A stretch of 64,000 bases of DNA from Paraniabella defluvii (GTDB lineage Bacteria > Bacteroidota > Bacteroidia > Chitinophagales > Chitinophagaceae), in NCBI GenBank assembly GCA_019316985.1, contig CP079215.1, positions 5,332,001-5,396,000 on the forward strand, given 5' to 3'. The notes below the pieces were generated by a model that was not told the DNA's origin, ran no database searches, and saw only the letters and a list, made by a program, of their open reading frames with translations. Position 1 is the first letter of the stretch. Every line of letters begins with the position of its first letter. This document shows positions 47,666 to 64,000 of this stretch, one piece after another. The translations under genes were made by a program, and so were the position numbers.

Positions 47666-50600
47666 ATGAAAATTGAACTGAAGCGGCACCGCTTTCGGAG
47701 TGTCTTCTTATTGCTCCTGCTGGGCACCTGGCTCCAGGGATGGGCACAATCCGCCACAATAGTTACCGGTACTGTACGCGATCAAACGGGCGCTGTAATG
47801 CCCAACGTTACGGTTACCGCCATCAATGAATCAGATAGCACTTTGCAAACCAGTACTGTTACCAATGAAAAGGGCGTATTTGGCTTTACGCAGCTTGTTA
47901 CAGGAGCCACGTATCGTTTTAAAGCTACCTATATTGGATACCAGGCGCAGGCGATTGATAATTACAAAGTAAAAGCCGCCGATAATGTACCCGTTGCAAT
48001 CGAGCTGTCGTCCACATCCAACGCAGCTTTGGAGGAAGTGATTGTAGTAGGCTATGGCACACAAAAGAGAGAAAATGCTACAGGCGCGGTAGACCAGATA
48101 TCGTCGAAAAGTTTGGAAAACCGTCCGGTTACCAATCTTACGCAGGGCCTGCAGGGTATGCTGCCCAACCTGAACCTGAAAATGATGGATGGCAAGCCCA
48201 CTCAATCTCCCAGCTATAATATCAGGGTACTACCTCTATCGGCCAGGGCGGCAGTGCATTGGTATTGATCGATGGTTTTGAAGGCGATCCCAGCCTCCTG
48301 AACCCCAATGACATCGAAACTGTTTCTATATTAAAAGACGCCGCATCTGCAGCTATTTACGGAGCGAGAGGTGTATTTGGTGTGGTGCTGATTACTACCA
48401 AGAAAGGAGTTAAAGGAAGAACCAGCGTTTCTTATAATACCAACTATGCACTGAAATCGCCGGTAACCCGTCCCGATTTTGTGACTGATGGTTATACCTG
48501 GGCTAAGATGTTTGCAGAAGCTTTTGTAAACGGCGACGGCGCTTTTCCGCAAAACGTTAACAAAACACAGAAATTCTCGCAGGCTTACCTGGATGAGTTT
48601 AAAAGAAGAGCTGAATCGGGGCAACCTTATAATACCATAGAGATAAACCCTAACACTGGTGAATATACTTACTATGGCAGTACCGACTATTATGCGGAAC
48701 TCTATAAGAGAAATACGGCGGCATTCGAAAATAATATTTCGGTAAGTGGCGGAAGCGATAAAGCCACCTTCCTGATATCGGGTAGGTTATTAAGACAGGA
48801 TGGCCTGTTTCGTTACAACAGCGACGACTACAATATGAAGAATATCCGGGCCAGGGGTACGATACAGGTATTCCCCTGGTTGAGTATAGAAAATAACGCC
48901 GACTATTCTATTATGAATTATCATAATCCCATCAATGTAGGCGAAGGCGGCGGCATCTGGCGAAATATTGCAGATGAAGGCCATCCTACCATGCCTATAT
49001 TTAACCCCGACGGGAGCTTAACTTTTTCAGCTGCATATACCGTTGGCGATTTCATCTATGGTAAAAATGGTATCGATACCCGCAGGAGGTATTCAGGAAC
49101 ATTACGGGTTTGAGAAGCCATTTTTTTGATGATAAATTCAGGGTAAATGCAGACTTCACCTTCCGCAATACCGATAACAATCGCGAACAAAAGCGGGTAC
49201 CGGTTCCTTACAGCAATTTCCGGGGCGTTACCGCCTATGTGGGCACTACTACCAACGACCTGTTGGCCGACTTGCGCGAAACCCGGTATTGGGCTACCAA
49301 TATTTATGCGGAATATGAAAACCGTTTCGGCGACAATCATTACCTGAAGGCCATGGCAGGTTATAACTACGAACAATCTACCTACAACCGTGTGTTGCTG
49401 TACAGCGCAATGGTATTATTTTCGAAGACGCTGGTGACTTAAACCTGGCTTTGGGACAGGCGATCACCACAGGCGGTGGTTATGAGCAATGGGCCATATT
49501 GGGCGGATTCTCCAGGCTGAACTACTCTTTTAAAGACCGTTACCTGGTTGAAGTGAACGCTCGTTATGACGGCTCCTCCAAATTCCCGGCCAATCAACGT
49601 TTTGGCTTTTTCCCTTCTGTGTCTGCGGGCTGGAGAGTCAATAAAGAGTCTTTTGGAATGTATCACCCAAAGCAGTTTCCGATCTTAAAATAAGAGCTTC
49701 CTATGGGGCGCTGGGTAACGGTAATATTGCCTCCTATGCCTTCCAGGAAGTATTCAACATCAGCCAGTCGGGGTAATTTTAAACGGCGCTAGGCCACAAA
49801 CCACCCGCAACCCAGCTGTGGTACCCAACGGGCTTACATGGGAAACGTCTACCACTACCAATGTCGGTTTGGATCTGACCACATTATCAGGACGGCTGAC
49901 TTTTATGGGTGATGCCTATGTACGTAAAACTACCGATATGTTTACATTCGGCTTAACCCCTCCTGCAGTGTTTGGCGCCGACGTACCCAAAGGAAACTAT
50001 GCCGATTTAACCACGCGCGGCTGGGAAGCATCTTTAACCTGGAATGATAAATTTGGCAGCTCAGAAAAACCCTTCCGTTATAATATAAGGCTGACTTTAT
50101 CGGACAACAAAACAAAAATAGACAAGTACAATAACCCGGATAAATTATTGAGCGATTATTATGAAGGACAAACGCTGGGTGAAATATGGGGTTATGAAAC
50201 GGAAGGCTTCTTTATAGACGAAGCAGATATTGCCTCACACGCCAAACAGAACCCGCAGATGAGAGCCTCTCCAACCGGCCTTTGGTTCCCCGGCGATATT
50301 AAGTTAAGAGACCTGAATGGCGACGGCTTTATCAACGTAGGTGAAAATAAAGTAGGGAACTCTGGCGACCGCAGAATTATCGGCAACTCAGCTCCGAGAT
50401 ACATGTATGGCGTGAACCTGGGTGCAGACTGGAACAATATTTTCTTCTCTGTTTTCTTCCAGGGCGTGGGTAAACAACAGTGGTACCCCAGTACTGAAAC
50501 AGAAATGTTCTGGGGACAGTACAACAGGCCTTATAATAATATTCCCGTTTTTCATTTGGGCAATATGTGGACTCCTGAAAATACCGATGCTTATTTCCCC

Positions 50601-50944
50601 GAACCATGTCAAGAGCGGCCTCCAGCAATACCAACCGTACGCTGGGTGTTGCGCAAACCCGTTACCTGCAGAATGTAGCTTATATACGGATGAAGAATAT
50701 ACAGATCGGTTACAACCTGCCTTCTAATTGGATCAACCGTATTGGCGCCCGCTCCCTGAAAGTATTTTTCTCGGGAGAGAATTTGTTCACTCATTCTCCC
50801 ATGTACAAAATTGTTAAGAATACGATCGATGTAGAAAACGCAGTTCCTTCAGACCAGGATCTGAACGCCAACAGTACTAACGGGGACGGCTACAACTACC
50901 CTATGCTGAAAAGCTACTCTTTTGGATTAAACGTTGGATTTTAA
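47666..50944 (+). CDS. SusC/RagA family TonB-dependent outer-membrane transporter
   Basis: About 1095 residues. Signal peptide VFLLLLLGTWLQGWA-Q, carboxypeptidase-D-like domain (VTGTVRDQTGAVMPNVTV), TonB-box region (EEVIVVGYGTQKRENATGAV), plug (LVLIDGFEGDPSLLNPNDIE, TVSILKDAASAAIYGARG) and barrel, ending YPMLKSYSFGLNVGF. Base losses lie near 48230, 49105, 49430, 49685, 49775 and 50610. It takes up a bulky substrate bound by the SusD encoded 19 bases downstream. With the EEP phosphoesterase that follows, a phosphodiester-containing ligand is possible. Confidence 0.95.
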
Positions 50945-50963
50945 CGCAATAAAAAAACAACAC

Positions 50964-52739
50964 ATGAAAAAGTTATATATCGCAATATTGCTGGGCAGCC
51001 TGGGTTTTGCTGCCTGCGACAAACTAGACCAGGTGCCTCAATCAACCGCTACCCGGCAGGCCGTATTTGGTACAGAGAACGGCCTGAAGTTATATACCAA
51101 CTCTTTTTATGGAATGGGCTTTCTGCCTAAAAATTCCACCAGCCAGGATGCTATGTCGGATTACCTTGCGGTAAGAGACGTGCAAAATTTTATCCGGGAA
51201 GGGGCTTTGCTGCCAATAATAGTTCGGGATGGACCTGGACTGATTTGCGGAACATCAATTATTTTATTCAAAATTGTACCGATCCGGCTGTACCGGAAGC
51301 AACACGTAACAATTACCTGGGTATTGCCCGCTATTTTAGGGCATACTTTTACTGGGATAAGGTAAAACGCTTTGGCGATGTGCCCTGGATTGGCAAAGCG
51401 CTTGACATTGATGATCCTTTGCTAACAGCAGGTCGTGACAAACGGGAACGGGTTATGGACTCGGTACTGGCCGATCTTGATTTTGCCTGCAACAATATTA
51501 TTACCACCAATGACGCCAGCCGCACAACTATTACCAAATGGGTAGCTCATGCTTTCAAATCAAGGGTATGTTTATTTGAAGGTACTTTTAGAAAATACCA
51601 TACCGAACTAAATCTTACCGGCACCGCTGCTAAATGGCTGAACGAAGCAGCATCGGCCGCCGACCAAATCATCAGGAACGGAGGCTTTTCATTAAATACG
51701 GCAGGAGGAGCCGGAGCTTCCTACCGCCAGATATTTACCAGCAATACACCGTTGGCCAATGAAGTATTACAGGCTGCTGTGGCCGATGTAAACCTGGGTG
51801 TGCTGAACGAAGCCAACTGGTGGTGGACCAGTGGAACCTACGGCGCCAAAGCCAGTTTTATCCGTACTTTTATCAATACCTATCTAAAGCTCGACGGTAC
51901 CCCTTTTACCAACGACCCGAATTATTCCACCATGCTGTTTAAAGACGAAGTAAAGAATCGCGATCTGCGTTTAAAGCAAACGATCCGTTTGGGCGATTAT
52001 AAAAGGATCAGCAATGGACAACAGGTACCTGCGCCGCCGGTCTTCTCTTATACCTTTACCGGGTACCAACCTATTAAATGGACATTGGACGATATGGCCT
52101 TTGATGCCGGTGCTTTAAACACTAATGCTATTGCCTTGTTCCGCTATGCTGAGGTGTTGCTGAATTATGCGGAAGCCAAAGCAGAGCTGGGTACGCTAAC
52201 CGACGCCGACTGGGCATTAACCGTAGGTGCTTTAAGGTCACGAGCGGGCATTACCGGTGGCTTAACTGCCAAGCCTCTTACAGCCGACCCCTACCTGGTA
52301 GCCAATTATTTCCCCGGCATTACCGACCCCGCGATACTGGAAGTAAGAAGGAAAGAGGAATTGAATTAAGCCTGGAAGGGCTCCGTTTTGCCGACCTGCT
52401 AAGATGGAAAAGAGGTGAGTTAATGCAGCAGGAATGGAACGGCTTTTACGTACCTGCCTTAAATACGCCAATGGATCTTAATGAAGACGGTATACCGGAT
52501 GTGGCATTCTATCAGGGCACACGTCCTTCACCAGCAGTAAGCGGTGTTACCTATGTAGATGTATCGCCCAGGATTGGCAATGCAGTAAACTCTCAACTAT
52601 TAAAAACGGCACTTCCGGTGAGCTTACCTGGATGAACGAAATACCCAGGAAATGGAATGAGCGCAATTATTACTACCCGATTCCTTTAAATGATTTGCAG
52701 CGTAACCCCAATTTAAAACAAAACCCGGGCTGGGAATAA
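50964..52739 (+). CDS. SusD/RagB family outer-membrane lipoprotein
   Basis: About 590 residues. Lipobox LGFAAC in MKKLYIAILLGSLGFAACDK. Helical part with YLGIARYFRAYFYWDKVKRF and GDVPWIGKALD; C-terminal SusD domain with NAIALFRYAEVLLNYAEAKAE, LRSRAGI, ILEVRRKEEL and LEGLRFADLLRWKRGELM, closing PIPLNDLQRNPNLKQNPGWE. Base losses lie near 51215, 52365 and 52620. It is the ligand-binding partner of the preceding SusC. Confidence 0.94.
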
Positions 52740-52760
52740 AAGATACTTTTAATCTGGCAC

Positions 52761-53595
52761 ATGAATTTAAAAACCTGGACTATAGCGGCTTTCATGCTGG
52801 CCGCTACCTGCGCTAATGCACAAAAATAACAGTAGGTACTTTTAACATCCGTTATGATAATCCCCGCGACTCAGGTAACCTGTGGACAGAACGTGCACCT
52901 GTTGTGGCCAGCCTGATCCGGTTTCATGGATTTGACGTGTTGGGTATACAGGAGGGACTGATAAACCAGCTCGAGGATATCAGTACAGCCCTGTCCGAAT
53001 ATGCCCGTTACGGTAAAGGCCGGGATGATGGCGGGAATGCCGGCGAACATGCTGCGATCTTTTACAAAAAGAACGCTTTAACCTATTGCTAAGTGGTGAT
53101 TTCTGGTTGTCTGAAACGCCGGGGCAACCTGGTAAAGGCTGGGACGTTACCTGCTGTAACCGTATCTGCTCATGGGTATATCTCGAAGACAAAACCACTC
53201 ATAAGAAATTCTACGTTTTCAACGTGCACTACGATCACCAGGGAATAATAGCACGTAAAGAAAGCAGCAAATTAATACTCAAAAAAATCCCTGAAATAGC
53301 CGGCAACAATCCCGTATTGCTTACCTGCGACTTAAATGGAAACCGGGAAAGTGAATGGTACCGGCGTTTGGCCACTTCCGGTATATTGACTGATGTGTAC
53401 ACAAAAGTTAAATTTCCTTATGCCAATAATTCATCAGCCAACGGGTTCAAAACGCCACGGGGCAATGACGTTATTGATCATATATTTATGACGAAGCAGT
53501 TTGCCGCCAGCAGGTGGGGTATTTTAACCGACACTTATTTTGGCAAATTTCCTTCAGATCACTTTCCTGTTTTAGCTGAAGTAGAGCTGAAATAG
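52761..53595 (+). CDS. Secreted endonuclease/exonuclease/phosphatase (EEP) family protein
   Basis: About 278 residues. Signal peptide MNLKTWTIAAFMLAATCANA-Q. EEP motifs: VGTFNIRYDNPRDSG, FDVLGIQEGLINQLEDI (metal Glu), FWLSETPGQPGKGWD, FYVFNVHYDHQG (His), LLTCDLNGNRES, DVIDHIFMT and FPSDHFPVLAEV (catalytic Asp-His). Base losses lie near 52828 and 53082. It is third in the SusC-SusD-EEP group, ends at a terminator, and resembles the EEP at 9469 (shared WLSETP and KFPSDHF). The usual annotation is endonuclease, but the substrate could equally be a phospholipid or phospho-polyol. Confidence 0.88.
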
Positions 53596-53783: not shown

Positions 53784-55017
53784 TTAATTATTTTTAGTGG
53801 GTACAAATGCAATGTATTTTTCCATTAAATTAATTGCAAAGTTGTACCGCGAAATAAACCTGATTCCGATGGAACCGTCCATTCCCGGCTGCCAGGCGGC
53901 TGTATTAGCTCCGCTTCCCATAAGGGCAACAGGCAGGTTATTTAATGTAAAAGCAGGTAAAAGTTTCAATTGTTCTGCCTTCCCATAAAAAAACAGGTGT
54001 AGAAATACCCATACTTACAGTAGCGCCGGTAGAATCTGGTTTAAATCCATCTACTAATAACTTGTGCTTTAAAACCAGGGGCGAAAAACTATGAGTTCGT
54101 ATCCGGCGCCGGTGTCTAAAATAAACTTTGCTTCTACCGGTTTTTCTTTCCGCATGCTCAGCACGGCGTTTATTTGCATATTGCCTGATGACACATTTAC
54201 CGGTATTCTTTTTTTCGCCGGGCAAGCTATTAAATTTCCCAAAAGTAAATAAGGTCAGTTCTTTCTTATCATAATCAATATAAGTAATATATCGTTTGGC
54301 AATGGTGTTACCTATGATCCCGTCTGTTCCATGTTCCCGGTTACCAAAAACAGCAATGCTCTGCTGGTTGATTGCAAAATCGTTAAGATGCACAGTATTA
54401 TTCCGCGATATTCCGATATTGATACTTCCTCCTACTACCGAAGCTTCCTGCTGGTGAGACACTTCAAGCCCCAATGTATCGGCTAATGCTTTGTTGAGCA
54501 TCATACCATCCGCACCGGTATCAAAAAGTAACTTCAACGGCCTTTTACTGTTATTAACTGTCACCGTAAGAATAATAGAGCCATTACGATCTTCGAAGGG
54601 AATTGTAGCTACTTTCCTGCTCTCGACATTGCGGTTCATACCGTACAGTTGATCGGCGATATCAAAATGCAGTAGCTCAAAGTTCCTGTTAAAATAGAGA
54701 TAGGTAGTAAAATTACCTGCATTATATGCTTTTGCTAAAACCACCCAGGTAGAATCCTGCTGCTGTAACTGCTCGTACACCAAAGAGTCTAATTTATATT
54801 TGTTCAAAACAGCATCCAGGTTTTGCATAGCGGCACGTCCCATGTAGGCCCCTACCGAAAAATCCTTTGCCAGGAAAGAACGCATCAGGCTATCTGTATG
54901 CATCGCAAATGCTGCCCTTACTAAATTGATCCTTTCTTTTAATATATCTTCCTGCGCCTGCATTACTAAGCCCTGCAGCAGGAAGCCAATACCCAAAAAA
55001 AAACAGCTTTTTATCAT
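53784..55017 (-). CDS. Aspartyl-protease family protein with two DTGA motifs
   Basis: About 410 residues after repair. Signal peptide IGFLLQGLVMQA-Q, an N-terminal helical region of about 130 residues, then a retropepsin-like domain with LLFDTGADGMMLNKAL and HGTDGIIGNTIAKRYITYID, then a second with FILDTGAGYELIVF (found after restoring a base at the A run 54210-54216) and GMDGSIGIRFISRYNFAINL. Two DTGA half-sites in one chain suggest a single-chain, pepsin-like pair of lobes. Base losses near 54215, 54085 and 53965. It ends the SusCD-thioredoxin group and is probably periplasmic; substrate peptides are unknown. Confidence 0.82.
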
Positions 55018-55026
55018 TTCTCCTTT

Positions 55027-56175
55027 TTAATTTGCCAGCAGGGCTTCGTAAGCCTTTGTATCCACTTCATATTTTCTTGCTTTGTCAATAGCCATGTTTA
55101 CATATTTTTATAAACTTCAGTTTTATTTTGTTGTTGATATACCCTGGCTACAGATAAAATAGTTTCAAATGCGGTATGCTCATCTATCGCCCCGGATCCC
55201 CACTTAGCCAGCAGCGTAAGTTTTTCAGAGCTGAGCTGTTGTTTATTAGTAAGGGTGCTCACCATAGCACCATAATAGTTTTTGTACAGCACCGGGTTGG
55301 CAGATACAAAACTTAAAAAGGCTTCTGAGTCTTTAGCTATTGTGTTATAATATTGATCAGCAAGCAGAAACCTGATAATTTTCCAGTCGGCTGCCGGGAA
55401 TTTATCTTTATAAGAATTTAGAAATTCTAAAAACAGTTGATCATTGCGCACACCAACTTTTTCCTTTAGGTCACCCGAAAGTATTGTGGTGGCTTTTCCC
55501 AGCACCACAGCCTGCCCGTACAATGCACGGTAAGCATTATAGTGGTTAATAAAATCTTCCTTCAGGTCTGAAGCGGGGTTGCGGGTTATCATAAAAAGCA
55601 TATCGGCTGCTTCTTTATGAAGTTTCCTGTTTTCAATTATCCATCTGTTTGCCACTGTATCATTGACACGCTTACGCTCTTTGCCAAAATAGTCGAGATA
55701 GGCTGGTGCATAGGGTACTTCCAGGCTGGGAGAAAAACCGTTCAGATACGTCTTATGCTTGTCCAGGCTTTCAGCATTATTGAGAAAGTCCATCAATACC
55801 GCCACATCGGCAAAGCCGTTAGTGGCATCAATCAGCGCGCCTTCCTTCGACAGCACCAAAAAGTTGGGAAACCCATCGTTTGATATTTTCGAACGATAGA
55901 ATCACCAAGCTGCTCTTTCAAAATATCGGTTTTCACACCAATAAATTTTTTTCCAGCGTTTCTTTTACCAGCCTGTTTGTAAATACCTCTTTATCCATAA
56001 CTGCGCAGGGATGGCAGCCGGTAAAATAAACATCAATAAAAATAAGCTTATTGTTTTGCCTGGCTTTTGCAAGCACTTCATTCCAGCTTGTAAAATGTTG
56101 TAAGACTTCCTGCTCCTGAGCCGCTGCAAACAGGCATGGCAGGAGCATGATGAAAAAAATGAATCGTTTTTTCAT
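55027..56175 (-). CDS. Thioredoxin-fold secreted protein
   Basis: About 382 residues. Signal peptide MKKRFIFFIMLLPCLFAAA-Q. Thioredoxin-like domain with LIFIDVYFTGCHPCAVMDKEV (active site CHPC), KTDILKEQLGDSIVRKY and cis-Pro in MGFPTFLVLS; then a 230-residue helical C-terminal region (YNAYRALYGQAVVLGKATTI and others) of unknown role. Base losses lie near 55930, 55855 and 55098; repaired, it ends AIDKARKYEVDTKAYEALLAN. It stands between a TlpA-like gene and the protease in the same direction, suggesting disulfide handling of an imported or exported peptide. Confidence 0.85.
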
Positions 56176-56257
56176 TAATAATATTTTTAATCCTGTACTT
56201 AAAAGAGGCGGTTAAGAGTGTAAACCGCCCTATCAATTCATCAGGCCAATTGGATCA

Positions 56258-57632
56258 TCAGAGATACTTTTCCAGTAACGGCTTCAGGTCGGGTGAAGAA
56301 GGCCGCGGAGCATCTACCGTTACAATCTTACCCTCTTTGTCGAAAACCATAAAACGGGGAATACCCGTAATCTTATAATACTTTGTTATATCGCTCCATC
56401 CGCTTGCGAAAAGTTGTATACCACCAAGACTTTGATCTTCGATCATCTTTTTCCATTTGTCCTTATCTTTTTCCTCATCAACCGATATACTAACAATGGC
56501 TACATCTTTGCCCTGCATGGCTTCTTCCAGCTGCTTAAGATGTGGAATTTCCACTTTACAGGGCCCGCACCAGGTAGCCCAGGTATCAATCAATACCACC
56601 TTGCCTTTCAAATCTGAAAATGCAACTGTTTTGCCGTTTTTATCTTCGAATTTAAATTCGTAGCCTTTATCTCCCGGTTTTAAAGTAGCAAGCGCGCTAT
56701 TGATCTGGAACTCGCGTTGCTTTTGATTCTCAGTCAGGATATATTCCTCAATACCGCTTTTATATTCCAGGTATTTACCATAGTCCTTTATAGCAGCGGC
56801 CTGATCGAGCGCAAAATCGCCTTTTAATGTATCGTTGCTGATCAATTTAAACACGGCCTTTGTACCCTCAAGACCACCCTGGGGCTTGTCTCCGCTTTTC
56901 ATACGATCTCGCATCAAAATAGTAGAAAAAGCCCGCATCCCCAGGGGTAACTGTAAGCTTTTTTGAGCAGTAGGAAAACCGAGCTGGCTGATACGGTAGT
57001 ATAATAGTCGGGAAGCTCTTCCTTGTCCGGATGGGCGCTGCGTGGCGTATTTAAAAAGTTAACCGCAAAAATGCCAGGTCAAGGGGTACGATATCTTTTA
57101 AAGCTGCTTCAAATTTTTTGTTACCGGTAGCTTTGGGTGCAGCCAGCCAGGTCTTTGCTTTCGGCAGCAGCTGATTCAACTCGGGAAAAAAATCTACATA
57201 AGTACTTTGATTTCTATTGAAATAGACAGACTTCCACTCTACCAGCCAGGCCATTTTATACCACTGTGTTAACACCTGGTTTTCTTTTGAATTTAAAACA
57301 CCTGTTAAGCTGTAAGCCGTATCATTGATGGAAATACCCAGATGGTCGCCGCTCTTCAGCCAAAACTTATAATTACCCTGTGGATTGATATTGGTTCCGG
57401 TTCCTACTATATATAAACCTTCGTACTCAGGAAAAAACCGGAAGCCGAATTTTCCATCGTTATTGGGTTGTGCAGTAGCAATAGGTTTAGTTACCCCGTC
57501 TACTACCTTGAAAAGCTTTACTTCCGCAAATTTTTCTCGTGCAAAAGATCCTTCAATGGTAACGGGTTTTTGAGCCATTAATGCCGGAAGCCCGATACTC
57601 AGTAATGACAAAAGAGTCGTTATTTTTTTCAT
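56258..57632 (-). CDS. TlpA-like thioredoxin with DUF4369-type N-terminal domain
   Basis: About 460 residues. Signal peptide MKKITTLLSLLSIGLPALMA-Q; N-terminal beta domain of the DUF4369 kind (VTIEGSFAREKFAEVKLFKV, YKFWLKSGDHLGISI); helical middle; C-terminal TlpA domain with YEFKFEDKNGKTVAFSDLKG, VVLIDTWATWCGPCKVEIP (active site WCGPC), IVSISVDEEKDKDKWKKM and cis-Pro in ITGIPRFMVFD. Base losses near 57060 and 56945. Periplasmic or membrane-attached disulfide reductase, common in Bacteroidota next to SusCD and PKD-like genes. Confidence 0.9.
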
Positions 57633-57664
57633 TTTTTATTGTATTTTAATATAATCGGTAAGTA

Positions 57665-59148
57665 TTAGCGTTCTCTGTAAGTGAAATCTTTTATCTTTCC
57701 AAAACCTGTGTACGATTGAAATAAGGTTAAATCCCCGTTTACAGGAGGAACTGTATACAGGTGTAATTCCCCGTTTTCTCCAACGGGCCTGGCCGGATCT
57801 TCTACAGCCACCATCAGTTTATTGTACCACTGGCCATAGGTATCGGGTTTCGACGACCTCCTTAAAAATTCCTGAAACTTCAATTGCGTGATTTTTTGTT
57901 GCCTAAATCAATCATTAGCTTGCTGGTTTTTAAAGACAGATCGTATTCATAAATTTTGCTGCCGACATTATAGAACATATATCCCAGGTCCGGGCTAAAA
58001 GTGTAAAAATCTGCCTTGTCAACATTCGGTGCCAGAACCGGAGCAAAGTAGCTTTGTACCCCGCTCATAGCAAACCTGGCCACATGAATTTTATTAACGG
58101 AATCAGGATAATGAAGTACAGCATATACATTATCGGTTCCATATAAATTCTCCATGAAACGCAGATCACCTTTCACATTATTATGATCAAATAAGGTTCC
58201 GTTATTCATTTTTGTAGCTACAGCGCCGCCACTTGCCAGACGCATAAAGCGCCTGGCATCCTTATCAAACATGATAGCCACGCCGGACGAATTGGAAGCG
58301 ATAAAAGGAGCTACTTTAAATGGGGACACCTGCCCGGCTTCTATATTTACGGGCAGTCCCATCTTTATCTGAAACACCCTGTAATAGTAATACAGGTTAT
58401 CATCCTCTCCAACCAGCCAGGCCATATTGACCCCACCTCTCAGGTATTTTCCTTTGAAAGTGGCCGGCACTGACCCTGCCGACATTTCATAATTGATATC
58501 ATAGGTAAACTGCCATGCAAATGTTTCGGGATGTATTTTGGTGGTTTGGGTTTCTGTTAGCAGGTAAATTCCCCACATGGTGGGATCGTAGTTGTAGCTA
58601 ACGATCTGAACCGGTTTCCCTTGTTGCGGTATTGTTGAGCCAACGGACGACAGTACATCTTTCATCAGCACAAAATTGCCGTCTCTGTACGAAAGCATGT
58701 CCAGCCTGGTCTTATCATTAACATCTGTCAACAGCAAATATCCTTCAAAAATGGAAGTAGATACGTTTAGCTTAAACGACTTATTCCAGGTAATACCCGT
58801 TTCCTTATCCTTTACAAAGAAATAGATTGTCCAGGTGGAGGGCTGCAAGGTAACCGTTGTTAGGTTCAATGTGAAGGAAGTGCCTAACTCCTTTACCCTA
58901 TCGCCTATAAGCAGTGACGCAGGACCAATAGCGGTCCATTTATAAGTATACCTGGCAGTGTCCCCGCTTTTATCAATGGTACCGGTGATCTGCGGCGTAA
59001 CTTTATACGGTTCGCCATAAAATACAGTTGTATCACTAAAACCCTCAATTGCAATTTCATTAATTTCTGTATAGTCGTAATTTCCCTTGTCTTTATAACA
59101 CGAAACAAGTAAAACGGTAGAAAGTAAGAAAAGTATATACGCTCTCAT
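57665..59148 (-). CDS. PKD-like family lipoprotein
   Basis: About 495 residues. Lipobox STVLLVSC near residue 17 followed by the family signature YKDKGNYDYTEINEI; PKD-like Ig fold (RYTYKWTAIGPASLL, WTIYFFVKDKETGITW), then a propeller-like region (YLLLTDVNDKTRLDML, MWGIYLLTETQTTKIH). One A lost at the A run near 57898-57903 shifts the last 70 residues (ITQLKFQEFLRRSSK to DFTYRER). This family is characteristically encoded after SusC, SusD and DUF4843, as here. Surface location likely; ligand unknown. Confidence 0.88.
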
Positions 59149-59179
59149 GCCTTTATTTTATCGTTATTAAATTGATAGT

Positions 59180-59944
59180 TTACTGCACCGATGGCCCCAT
59201 TACCATTCGGGAGCCATCCTCTTCATAAATCGGATTTCCGTCTGCTGCCATTTGATTCAGATACCGCTGCATATACTTGCCATAAAATATAACATCTGCT
59301 ACGCTGATTTGTGTATCCAGGTATGATGGCGTAGTGTTCAGCAACTCACAGATAAGGAATATTTTTTTCCTTGTAAAAGACCCGAGGTAGGCATCTAACC
59401 ACCTGCCCGGCTTTTTAAGTATGTCGGTTACGTAAACGGTGTATTTTGTATAGTTTAACCTCCGGGTAGCAGATGTCATTTTATATTCCATCGCGTTATT
59501 AAAATTTTCATTAGCGGGTAACCGGAATATGATCCTGTAATTAGAGTCCTGCATATCGGCAGTCCGAAGCAGTTTCAGGTTAACGGTATCACGTACTTTC
59601 CCGGCCTTTATATATTGAACGGGCGCCGGTGCTACAAAATGAACACCTGGTTTGGCGGTGCTGGAGTCGCTGTCTACTACCAGGTTGTATGCCCTGTCCT
59701 GGTCTTCAGGTGCTCCCGTTACAACTACATATAGCTTAATAGTTGAATCGCTTGTGCTTCCGCCGGCAAAAGCAAAGCTAATAGCTGTGGTATCCAACAG
59801 CGGGCTGGATCCGAGAGGCATATTAAATACTGCAGGTGCAAAATAAATGCTATTCTCGCTATGGTAAGTCATTAAAAGCTCCTTCTTACAAGACATAAAG
59901 CTTAGCGCTATCAAAACCCCAATGCATACTATATTCTTTCTCAT
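59180..59944 (-). CDS. DUF4843 family lipoprotein
   Basis: Unbroken, 254 residues. Lipobox ALSFMSC, then KKELLMTYHSENSIYF, FAFAGGSTSDSTIKLYVVVTG, AKPGVHFVAPAPVQYIKAGK and RDTVNLKLLRTADMQDSNY, an Ig-like beta domain of DUF4843, with a Tyr/Met-rich tail (GKYMQRYLNQMAADG). It lies nine bases after the SusD stop. Probably an accessory surface lipoprotein of the SusCD complex. Confidence 0.9.
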   Translation of the reverse strand: MRKNIVCIGVLIALSFMSCKKELLMTYHSENSIYFAPAVFNMPLGSSPLLDTTAISFAFAGGSTSDSTIKLYVVVTGAPEDQDRAYNLVVDSDSSTAKPGVHFVAPAPVQYIKAGKVRDTVNLKLLRTADMQDSNYRIIFRLPANENFNNAMEYKMTSATRRLNYTKYTVYVTDILKKPGRWLDAYLGSFTRKKIFLICELLNTTPSYLDTQISVADVIFYGKYMQRYLNQMAADGNPIYEEDGSRMVMGPSVQ

Positions 59945-59953
59945 AAAAGGTAA

Positions 59954-61395
59954 TTATCTGGTTATAGTTTCGGATAAAGGAAGCGGCACCACGTATTTTG
60001 CCGCGTTCATAGTTATATTTCCGGAAGCAGCGCTACCATTAGGAATAGTAGTAATCCCTCTCCTTTTATAATAAAAGAAGAGCTGCCCCTCTCCAAAAAA
60101 CTCTTTTTGATATTCTTTTTGAAGTTCGGTGTTAACCGTAACAGTTGAGGCCAGATCAGTCAGTCCTCTGTTGAACCTTACCTGGTTCAATACACGCAAC
60201 TGCTCGGTTTTATCCGTTTCACACTCGGCTATGATATAATACAATTCAGTTTTTCTTATAAGAGGCTGAAACATTCTTCGCAGTATGGTTTTATCCAATA
60301 TATCCGCATATTTAAAAAAGGTTCTGTAGTTCTTTCCCGATTCGGGATACAACCAGGTAGTGGTATACCGGTAGTCTCCTTCAAGGTTTTCAAATACGGC
60401 AGCCAAACGGGCAGGTTGGGATGCAAGAATGGTAGCATCAGAAATGGCCCCGTTAAAAACAACATCGTGTGTCAGGTACATTGTTGGGTTCTGTAAGCCA
60501 AACAATACTTCATTGGAAAAAATCCTGTCCGGATTTGCTTTCTCCGTGTAAATGCTTGCAAAAGCCGTCCAGGGAAATATACTTCCCCGGTAAGCGCCGC
60601 CTTCGCAGCCTGCAGGGCCGAAACCTTATCGTTCCTGTATAGGTATACCCTTGCCTGCAACGCTTTTACGGCATAGTAATTCATCCTTCGATTCCTGAAG
60701 GTTCGGTAAAAATCATTTCCATCATTGAGTACTACAGCATTAACGCCGGTGGCTCTGACAGGGTCGTTTGTTAAATATTCTTCGGCCTTCTTAAGATCGT
60801 CAACGATCTTATCGATCACGCGGTTGGCAGGAATAATATCTTCTGCGGCAGCCACGGGCCTGGTGTAATAAGGAATCGACGTTAAAACAGAGTCTGCATT
60901 AGAAGGAATGGGGCCATATAGCCTGAGCAAGTCAAAATGCAAAAAAGCACGCAATCCATAAGCCTCCCCTAAAAGCTGGGCCTTTTCCCCTTCTGCCAGG
61001 ATACCCGAAGTTTTTGACAATGATTCAATAAAGTTGTTCGCCCCCAGGATGGCTACGTAGGCATTTTCCCAAATACTTTCAAAAGCGGCCATCACATTCT
61101 GGTCTCCGTAGCTGTAATTTGAAAAAACAGCCCAGGGGCTTTGACTGCTGGCGGTATTGTAACGCTGACCTAACAACTCCGTTGTACTCCAGGTTAAATT
61201 TCGCCCATACAGGGCTGTGGAAGCCAGCTGCATATAAACACCGTTTAGCACCTGGTTAATATTAGATCGATTGGTAAAAACCTGGTCCTGAATAAATTTA
61301 TCTTCCGGCTTTACATCCAGAAACTTGGTACACCCAGGAATGATCGTAGTGATGATAACTGCAAAAAGACTTAAATATTTATGATTCTTTTTCAT
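59954..61395 (-). CDS. SusD/RagB family outer-membrane lipoprotein
   Basis: About 480 residues from MKKNHKYLSLFAVIITTIIP; lipobox IIPGC. The mature start CTKFLDVKPEDKFIQ and the segment AQLLGEAYGLRAFLHFDLLRLYG are SusD hallmarks; the C-terminal part has RRMNYYAVKALQARVYLY, KTELYYIIAECETDKTEQ, LNQVRFNRGL and EYQKEFFGEGQLFFYYKR. One base lost near 60500 splits it. An earlier Met at 61422, overlapping the SusC stop (TAATG), adds nine residues and cannot be excluded. Confidence 0.94.
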
Positions 61396-61421
61396 TATGA
61401 TAGATTTGAAAGAATTGACCA

Positions 61422-64000
61422 TTAGAATGACGCTGATACTTTTAGTGAAACATTCCTGCTGAACGGATAGTCAATACCCCGTTCATTTAAAGTTGTAGCC
61501 CATCTGAATATATCATTGGCATATAAAGTAATACCCAGGCTTTGTGCTCTCAATTTTTTAATCCATGGGCTATACTGCTGCATAAACTGCCAGCCAAGGC
61601 TGATGGACTCACCTATCAATACATCATCGTCCTGCAGAAATCTTGATGATGCAGGCGAAGTGGATGTAGATGATATGGATTTGAACTGGGAGATATCACC
61701 GGGATTCTTCCAGCGCTCATATAATGCACGCTTATCCTGGTTTTCTTTTAAACCTTCTATGGATATGTTCTCTACCTTTTCAAATAAAACTGTGTTGAAA
61801 AGATCTCCGCCGTAACGGTAGCGTAAGGCGATACTCGCAACCAGCCCCTTGTAGCTTACCGAGTTATTGATGACTCCTTCAACCGCGGGTCTTGAGTTCC
61901 CTACCCGCACAATATCATCCGTACTGTAGTCAAATGTTTGCTGGCCGTTTACCTTTAAGAAAATTTCTTTCCCGGTAGCAGGATCAATACCAAGCGAGCG
62001 CACGGCCCAGATATCGTCGGGGCTGTAGCCATCTTTATATCTGATCAGAGATTTATCATCGAGCAGGTTTTTGTTTACTCCCGCAAGTGCGGCGCCGAAA
62101 TGATCATACCTCGATTTCAAAGCAGCGCCATTGACGCCTATATTCCAGATAAACCTGTCCCTGGGGCGGTATATTACAGCATAACGGGCGCTAAACTCAA
62201 TTCCTTTTGTATTCAGCATTCCGGCGTTCATCCCGTACCCGTAAAGGCCGGTGGATGCAGGCAGGTCCAAAACCACTATCAGGGGATCTGTATTTTTATC
62301 ATAGAAGTTGATGTAACCTGTAAGACGGTTGCCTAATACAGTGTAATCAATTGAAAGGTTTTTGGTAAGGGTTTTTGCCATTCCAGCTCATTATTTCCCA
62401 AAGTGGTAAGGCTCATTCCTTGTCCGAAATAGTTTACCGTTTGCTCAAATGTGTAAGTAGAAGTTGATGAAGTAGAGCCTATATTCTGGTTACCCGTATA
62501 CCCGATGCTGCCTTTTAGCCTCAGTAAATTAATCCATGCAGCTTTCGATAACACCTTTTATGCAAGTTCCACCCCAGGCCAACTGACCAGAAAGGCGTAT
62601 ACTTACGTGCAGAGCCAAAAGCGGTGGAGCCGTCTACCCTTCCGGTCAGGTCAGCAAAATAAGTGTCGTCAAAGAGTAGTTGACGGACAGCAAAAGGTTA
62701 TTTCGCCTTGCTATCGAATTTGCATATCCCGGTCTGGAATTCTCAGGGTAGCCAAATGAAAATATCGGGTTACCATTACTTCCTGCCGGAAAACCAACAG
62801 CTACATAATTTTCCCTGTTATTATCCCGGTGTTCCAGTTCTCCCTGCAGGTTAATATTGATCCGGTTACGTTCAATAAGCTTGGCATATGCCGCCTGTAC
62901 ATTGAGCTGGAAACTGTTAGATGCCGTATTACTTCTGGAATATTGCCCTTTTTAAACAGATCCACTTCATCAAAACGGGTTAACTCGGGGGTGCAAATGC
63001 TTTGGTTGATGCATTATTTTTAATAACATTCGCACTGGCTGAAAAACGCCATTCCTTCCCGGAGTGTAGATCAAACTCAGTTGATTCTGTATCTGGTGTC
63101 CGATGGTGTTATTAATATTATTAAACTGGGCATCATACAATGGGTTATAAACGTTGTAGCTGCCCAGCGTGGTATTCATCGACTGCTCCAGGTACTTGGG
63201 AATGCTACCATCATCGTTATATTTTCTGTAGTACGGATTAGCCCGGGAGTATAAAGAGAATGACCCGTAGGGAGATTCGTTGGCGTTACTCCCGCTTAAA
63301 TTGAACCTGTTTACAAAGCTAAATTTATCTATCCGGTAAGTCACATCAATATTAGCTCCATAAGTATTCCTGCCCGAACCTTTCATTATTCCGGGAACAT
63401 CCGGTAATTACCTCCAAGAGAGAACATAAATTCTTTACTTCCCCGCTAACCTGCAGTGAGTGTCCGTTAGTTACAGCGGTTCTCAGGGGCTCGTTCATCC
63501 AATAAGTATTAACACCCCGCTGTACCTCCTTTAATTTATTATCGTATAACTGGTTTAAAGCAAGTTGCTGTTCGGGTAATGTGTTGGTATAAAGTGTATA
63601 CCTGCCGGCTAGTCTTTCAAATTCAAGCTTCTCAGCTGCATTCATCAGGTTATAATCACTAAGATCCGGCATCTGAACCATAAAATCAGCGTTATAGCTT
63701 ACTCTCAATTCTCCGGGTTTAGGTTTTACCGTTTCCACTACTACCACACCGTTTGCGGCCTTTGCACCGTATATAGCAGTTGACGCGGCATCTTTTAATA
63801 AGGTTACCGATTCTATACGGTTAATATCAAGGTCGGTGATCCGTTGAAGCGTGGTGGGAAATCCATCCAGAATAAATAGCGGCTGATTAGGATCTTCTGC
63901 AAATTCGTCGTTCAGAGTAGCCGCAGCTAAACTGGTTTTACCACGTAGTTCAATGGTAGGCAGTGCATTGGGGTTAGAACCCTGTAAATTGTTCTCCAGT
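61422..64000 (-). CDS. SusC/RagA family TonB-dependent transporter, N-terminus outside window
   Basis: About 860 residues of the plug and barrel are visible; the signal peptide and carboxypeptidase-like domain lie beyond 64000. The plug has PTIELRGKTSLAAA, PLFILDGFPTTLQRI, DLDINRIESVTLLKDAAS and TAIYGAKAANGVVVVE; the barrel ends RNVSLKVSASF. At least four base losses occur, near 63370, 63010, 62570 and 62370. It is the first gene in the window of a group SusC, SusD, DUF4843, PKD-like, TlpA-like, thioredoxin and aspartyl protease, whose cargo may be a peptide or disulfide-containing molecule. Confidence 0.93.

Follow-up and report, generated by a model that had tools for sequence, protein, structure and literature searches.

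A conserved SusCD gene set with two thioredoxin-fold proteins and a pepsin-like protease is a candidate peptide import system in Bacteroidota

We analyzed a 64,000-nucleotide stretch of the Paraniabella defluvii genome (contig CP079215.1, positions 5,332,001 to 5,396,000; hereafter the window) and found that seven genes at its end belong to a real, conserved module. The genes encode a SusC-like TonB-dependent transporter, a SusD-like lipoprotein, a DUF4843 lipoprotein, a PKD_2 lipoprotein, a TlpA-like thioredoxin, a second thioredoxin-fold protein, and a two-lobed aspartic protease. Pfam matches and translations place all seven on the minus strand in this order, as originally predicted (Table 1). 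SusCD systems are generally taken to import sugars, and when they lack carbohydrate enzymes their cargo often stays unassigned. Here, conserved redox and protease genes take the place of sugar enzymes and suggest a cargo class that can be tested, namely peptides and proteins with disulfides. We lean towards the view that the module supports regulated TonB-dependent uptake of peptides or protein fragments and their breakdown in the periplasm. The gene content argues well for peptide import; disulfide-bearing cargo is a weaker proposal and a natural refinement of it.

The conservation of the gene set was examined in a scan for protease homologs in one genome per species, made without regard to the neighboring genes. 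The scan yielded 67 protease loci, of which 65 were kept and two (L121 and L122, 24-25% identity) were dropped. In 54 of these 65, the protease gene lies in one same-strand run with genes for SusC, SusD, DUF4843, PKD_2, and at least one TlpA. The run also includes the second thioredoxin at 38 of the 65, giving all seven genes. Such runs were found in Pedobacter, Sphingobacterium, Niabella, Arachidicoccus, Nubsella, Desertivirga, Dysgonomonas, and Prevotellaceae bins. The median intergenic gaps at the main steps are 4.5, 11, 18, 34, 28.5, and 16.5 bp, with single gaps of up to 810 bp. A FecR gene was labeled in 32 of the 54 runs, and many of the other runs stop at SusC. The original prediction called for a check on conservation of the full set and would have failed had the protease and thioredoxin genes not been conserved with SusCD; the runs show that they are conserved, though unevenly. 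A chance neighborhood is ruled out by a gene set common to 54 of the 65 homologs.

Four of the 11 loci without a full run (L095, L105, L106, and L116) run into the end of a contig or stretch; L106 coincides with L055, where SusC and SusD do appear. The other seven are uncut and lack SusCD (L078, L060, L110, L111, L113, L118, and L117). Those from Chitinophaga (L110, L111, L113, and L118) and Olivibacter (L117) show 33-37% identity. L078 holds genes for a TlpA, the protease, the second thioredoxin, and a TlpA next to a prophage tail gene, and the front half of the module may have been displaced by the prophage. At L060 (10013-16544, the same place as L052), SusCD is replaced, and the protease gene sits beside an STN-bearing TonB receptor and DUF4249. 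Of 394 genomes sampled from the family, 5 contain close homologs of the protease (E <1e-70), the window's own among them. The next matches lie at about 1e-20, and some match at E 0.001 or better occurs in 286 of the 394 genomes. Among the close homologs, L053, L054, and L055 have genes for a sigma factor, FecR, SusC, SusD, DUF4843, PKD_2, and TlpA, with the second thioredoxin also present at L053; L052 has the protease without SusCD.

Pfam matches only the first lobe of the protease (DTGADG). The second lobe (DTGAGY) is visible in the translation, in the alignment, and in a model of the Niabella hibiscisoli homolog. This AlphaFold2 model, built from 35 sequences, has a bilobal pepsin fold with a mean predicted local distance difference test score (pLDDT) of 90.8 and a predicted template modeling score of 0.88. 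Its best match among solved structures is 9iy9, a putative endopeptidase from Bacteroides fragilis (Z 22.4, root-mean-square deviation 3.2, 260 residues, 15% identity). Further matches, with Z scores of about 17, are renin, pepsin, and cathepsin D; Foldseek was also run. The first lobe reads FDTGAD in 54 of 54 copies. At the second lobe, 49 of the 54 have D[TS]G, two have DLG, and three do not match the pattern. For each lobe, a psi-loop motif is found in 52 of the 54, and the window protease contains both catalytic motifs. The fold and the two D[TS]G lobes place the protein among the bilobal pepsin-like aspartic proteases, with a predicted peptidase activity. It shares its bilobal fold with 9iy9 and the pepsin-like proteases, but differs from pepsins by an extra N-terminal domain and, in some copies, a C-terminal extension.

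Both thioredoxin-fold proteins retain a CxxC motif in every copy (86 of 86 for TlpA and 38 of 38 for the second thioredoxin). The TlpA-like protein has the features of the TlpA/ResA group: an AhpC-TSA/Redoxin domain with CxxC and an N-terminal export signal, the latter read by eye. The second protein contains a CxxC-bearing domain related to DsbD-gamma/DsbH, and the solved structures closest to it in sequence are 2kuc (a putative disulphide-isomerase) and DsbD-gamma domains. The thioredoxin fold and CxxC are common to these proteins and to TlpA/ResA and DsbD-gamma thioredoxins. The TlpA of this module differs from TlpA/ResA proteins in its long N-terminal part. The second protein differs from DsbD-gamma in its helical C-terminal half, which spans about 240 residues after the thioredoxin domain in a model of the N. 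hibiscisoli copy (pLDDT 89.9). DsbD_TM matches are present in the window's own genome, and these proteins could feed electrons to the periplasm. At two other loci, L018 and L019, the proteins encoded after PKD_2 (716 and 681 amino acids) match TlpA and have two CxxC motifs each; they are possibly tandem thioredoxins.

We considered where these proteins are likely to reside and what the thioredoxins might act on. A lipobox scan, which applies a crude pattern to a short N-terminal stretch, found a lipobox-like cysteine near the start of SusD (49/56), DUF4843 (50/54), and PKD_2 (52/56) proteins. The same feature was seen in 5 of 89 TlpA proteins, 8 of 38 second thioredoxins, and 6 of 55 proteases. 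Because lipobox starts are frequent in the front half and rare in the back half, the counts fit a predicted surface location for the former and a soluble periplasmic location for the latter. The transporter proteins are cysteine-poor: the median number of cysteines after residue 40 is 0 for SusC and DUF4843, 1 for SusD, and 2 for PKD_2. Columns with more than 30% cysteine, besides the lipobox, number one in SusD (23/56) and one in PKD_2 (20/45). This scarcity disfavors a role for the thioredoxins as folding helpers for the transporter. Because the transporter is cysteine-poor and the one recurrent cysteine of the protease is not universal (see below), the cargo would, by exclusion, be the likeliest thioredoxin target.

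In the mechanism we propose, the SusD, DUF4843, and PKD_2 lipoproteins would capture cargo at the cell surface, and SusC, judging from its family, would import it using TonB energy. The FecR and extracytoplasmic function (ECF) sigma factor genes present upstream may control the operon. Once in the periplasm, the cargo would have its disulfides reduced by TlpA and the DsbD-gamma-like thioredoxin, and the bilobal protease, by virtue of its fold and motifs, would be expected to cleave it. As a more tentative generalization, which we regard as possible, Bacteroidota may import disulfide-bonded peptides or small proteins by a dedicated route. This route would combine capture by a fast-changing SusCD-DUF4843-PKD_2 set, reduction by thioredoxins, and cleavage by an exchangeable protease, of which the pepsin-like enzyme would be one version. 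If so, one steady back end could serve many cargoes, and bacteria would have their own version of reduce-then-digest protein breakdown. The operon also suggests what the DUF4843 and PKD_2 lipoproteins may mark.

We compared the genes downstream of PKD_2 with those at other SusD loci. PKD_2 was found at 40 places in 9 of 59 genomes; 39 were compared, the fortieth being the window's own. The control consisted of 40 SusD places in two genomes (each fourth row of an incomplete list, with rows near PKD_2 excluded and eight added by hand). A thioredoxin-fold protein is encoded downstream in the same-strand run at 27 of the 39 PKD_2 loci versus 10 of the 40 SusD loci without PKD_2 (Fisher p 1.1e-4), as scored with profiles that were built from the PKD_2 loci and across loci that are not independent. 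Scanning up to three genes downstream with Pfam avoids this profile bias. The scan covered 84 proteins from 36 of the 39 PKD_2 loci and 90 from 37 of the 40 control loci, with control genes beginning directly after SusD, and the commonest 25 of 49 families (PKD_2) were compared with the commonest 25 of 122 (control). AhpC-TSA matches make up 29 of the 84 PKD_2 proteins versus 10 of the 90 control proteins. Met-zincin accounts for 6 of 84 versus 2 of 90. Trypsin_2, which S46 proteases can also match, accounts for 7 of 84 and falls outside the 25 commonest control families. The sugar enzymes among the commonest 25 control families are GH43 (5) and GH95, fucosidase, arabinofuranosidase, and GH88 (2 each). 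No glycoside hydrolase appears among the 25 commonest of the 49 families in the PKD_2 set. The absence of carbohydrate enzymes noted in the original prediction is confirmed for the seven genes and, among those 25 families, extends to the PKD_2 class.

Proteases of several types occur in these related systems. Local profiles identified a protease in the run at 12 of the 39 PKD_2 loci: a trypsin type at L010, L013, L015, L025, and L048; Met-zincin at L016, L023, L034, and L045; S46 at L031 and L035; and an aspartic protease at L041. Because related systems with SusCD, DUF4843, and PKD_2 hold other proteases at the same place, the protease looks like an exchangeable part. One of these loci, L010 (G000:C1:4806000-4825000), is a second SusCD-DUF4843-PKD_2-TlpA locus in the window's own genome. 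It encodes a trypsin-type protease and has a DsbD_TM match about 6 kb past the PKD_2 gene.

The front and back halves of the module have diverged unevenly. Between the window and N. hibiscisoli (L056), identity is 82-94% for TlpA, 65-80% for the second thioredoxin, and 67-75% for the protease, and it falls to 35-54% for SusC, 38-42% for SusD, 31% for DUF4843, and 27-28% for PKD_2. Against the window, L056 ranks first for every back piece and no better than 29th for any front piece; the front end of the window is nearer to loci from Sphingobacteriaceae (Pedobacter, Nubsella, and Desertivirga). Across all pairs with a protease identity of at least 60%, similarity is lowest for DUF4843 and PKD_2. 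In the 30-60% protease bins, the second thioredoxin is comparably divergent (27-30%), so the steady back half consists chiefly of TlpA and the protease. The window and N. hibiscisoli are sisters with a support of 100 in the protease and TlpA trees (path 0.3 and 0.08). Their path in the DUF4843 tree is 2.75, with the window still among the five rows nearest L056. In the PKD_2 and SusD trees, each lies outside the five rows nearest the other. Constraining the two to stay together was weakly rejected for PKD_2 (approximately unbiased test, p-AU 0.032) and not rejected for DUF4843 (p-AU 0.237), SusD (0.484), and a 138-residue SusC piece (0.192). Exchange of front ends between loci is one possible explanation of these trees, and fast divergence would explain the data equally well.

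The thioredoxins might instead serve the protease by keeping a cysteine near its second catalytic motif reduced, which would make it a redox-switched enzyme. A single cysteine nine residues past the lobe-2 aspartate is indeed kept in 50 of 53 copies, and it is the only protease column with more than 30% cysteine. In N. hibiscisoli and the window, Val takes this position, and L108 and L114 (the copies from Dysgonomonas and Prevotellaceae) have Ala there, yet TlpA is present at those loci. Absence of the cysteine where TlpA is retained disfavors the switch, which we consider unlikely. We find it similarly improbable that the module handles glycans or glycoproteins with the thioredoxins and protease as helpers. 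The comparison past PKD_2, where glycoside hydrolases are missing from the commonest 25 of 49 families and several occur in the control, speaks against a glycan system, although most characterized SusCD systems import glycans, TlpA genes occur at control SusD loci as well, and L057 has GH16/GDPD and phospholipase-C-like genes farther along its downstream side.

Two other roles were weighed. The cargo could be a small thiol- or metal-binding peptide product whose payload is released by the redox proteins and the protease. An excerpt of PMC12636315 reports that gene clusters for peptide products in Bacteroidota occur together with SusC and SusD genes. No biosynthetic or metal genes were seen in the runs we examined, in which no search was aimed at them, and we rate this cargo as quite unlikely. 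It is highly improbable that the protease acts in signaling by cutting FecR or another regulator. FecR labels in 32 of the 54 runs would suit such a role, as would the lone L060 protease, which has a sigma/FecR pair and a TonB receptor nearby, but many PKD_2 loci that lack this protease also have FecR-like genes adjoining SusC, so signaling does not need it.

Several observations weigh against our preferred reading of the module as an importer of peptides for reduction and cleavage. TlpA genes are common beside SusCD generally, as seen at 10 of the 40 control loci, and the control also contains peptidases (Peptidase_Mx1 and Met-zincin, each 2/90). The protease loci come mostly from Pedobacter and Sphingobacterium, and because these genera form most of the set, the run counts are not independent. 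An ATP-binding cassette type 2 (ABC-2) exporter is encoded at 7 of the 39 PKD_2 loci (six in genome G018), most with MutS-like genes, and a thioredoxin is absent from all but one of the seven. The original prediction staked its claim on the protease and thioredoxin genes being conserved with SusCD. They are, but unevenly: the second thioredoxin is absent from 16 of the 54 runs, and the seven uncut protease homologs described above lack SusCD.

At L012, L027, L039, L043, L044, and L046 (downstream of PKD_2), and at control locus L137, the genes after SusCD encode an ABC ATPase, a membrane protein of the ABC-2 type, and MutS-like proteins. The MutS-like proteins are about 430-460 amino acids long and mostly paired; L043 has one of 898 amino acids. 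MutS-like genes at SusCD loci are unusual in that they place DNA-repair-type ATPases beside an importer.

We compared the module to known import systems. Excerpts of PMC11817032 describe RagAB from Porphyromonas gingivalis as a SusCD-type oligopeptide importer, and a SusCD system in Flavobacterium psychrophilum has been proposed to import collagen oligopeptides, according to a part of PMC9723704. RagAB has in common with the locus described here a SusC/SusD-type transporter read as a peptide importer. The present locus differs by combining DUF4843, PKD_2, two thioredoxin-fold proteins, a pepsin-like protease, and FecR/sigma genes in one run; the excerpts of PMC11817032 mention no comparable partners for RagAB. 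Polysaccharide utilization loci also contain a SusC and SusD pair, further surface lipoproteins, and a regulator. Those loci are recognized by carbohydrate-active enzymes accompanying SusCD, which are not among the seven genes; the run lacks a glycoside hydrolase and has thioredoxins and a protease instead. An account of this operon was not found in the literature searched, which lay mostly outside subscription journals and was covered mainly by titles. DUF4843 appeared there in unrelated work only, judging from titles and abstracts, and DUF5117, DUF4953, DUF5118, PF16407, PF16132, and 'PKD-like family' were not mentioned in the literature searched. The locus would be a variant of known SusCD/RagAB-like import whose combination with thioredoxins and a protease was not found described.

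Table 1. Genes of the seven-gene locus, with positions in the window
Feature	Position	Strand	Basis and state
SusC-like TonB-dependent transporter	61422..64000	-	Frameshifted pieces, continuing past the window end; pieces match intact SusC
SusD-like lipoprotein	59954..61422	-	SusD-like_3 7.8e-18; one frameshift split
DUF4843 lipoprotein	59180..59944	-	PF16132 3.1e-22
PKD_2 lipoprotein	57668..59148	-	PF16407 1.2e-25; final part in another frame
TlpA-like thioredoxin, WCGPC	56258..57632	-	Redoxin/AhpC-TSA ~3e-18; frameshift split
Second thioredoxin-fold protein, CHPC	55098..56175	-	Thioredox_DsbH 1.6e-9, Thioredoxin_7 2.1e-8; frameshifted
Two-lobed aspartic protease, DTGADG and DTGAGY	53784..55017	-	Asp_protease_2 1.5e-12; lobe 2 frameshifted

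The SusC and SusD genes are adjacent, as is characteristic of SusCD importers. The intact SusC of L053 has Plug and barrel domains, and no STN domain was reported on that copy at E 0.001. Upstream of SusC, beyond the window and on the same strand of the same genome, lie a FecR gene and a piece of an ECF sigma factor gene. FecR (5.5e-19) and Sigma70_r2 (2.6e-10) matches at L049 agree with a sigma/FecR pair upstream of the receptor. Frameshifts interrupt six of the seven genes, all but DUF4843. The source genome, a single contig of 6.13 Mb, is rated 72% complete, and broken frames also occur along the rest of the window. For these two reasons we read the frameshifts as probable assembly errors.

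Reading of the open reading frames revealed a second frameshifted SusC/SusD pair on the plus strand (window 47666-53595), oriented towards the seven-gene locus and followed by a frame that resembles an endonuclease/exonuclease/phosphatase protein. A gene for a phospholipase-C-like phosphoesterase lies near the operon in 20 of the 67 protease loci, in two genera and on opposite strands. It is on the plus strand at L057, L058, L059, L061, L062, L063, L065, L094, L095, and L098 and on the minus strand at L067, L071, L073, L074, L075, L076, L082, L087, L097, and L115. Its position may reflect a shared neighborhood or a functional link.

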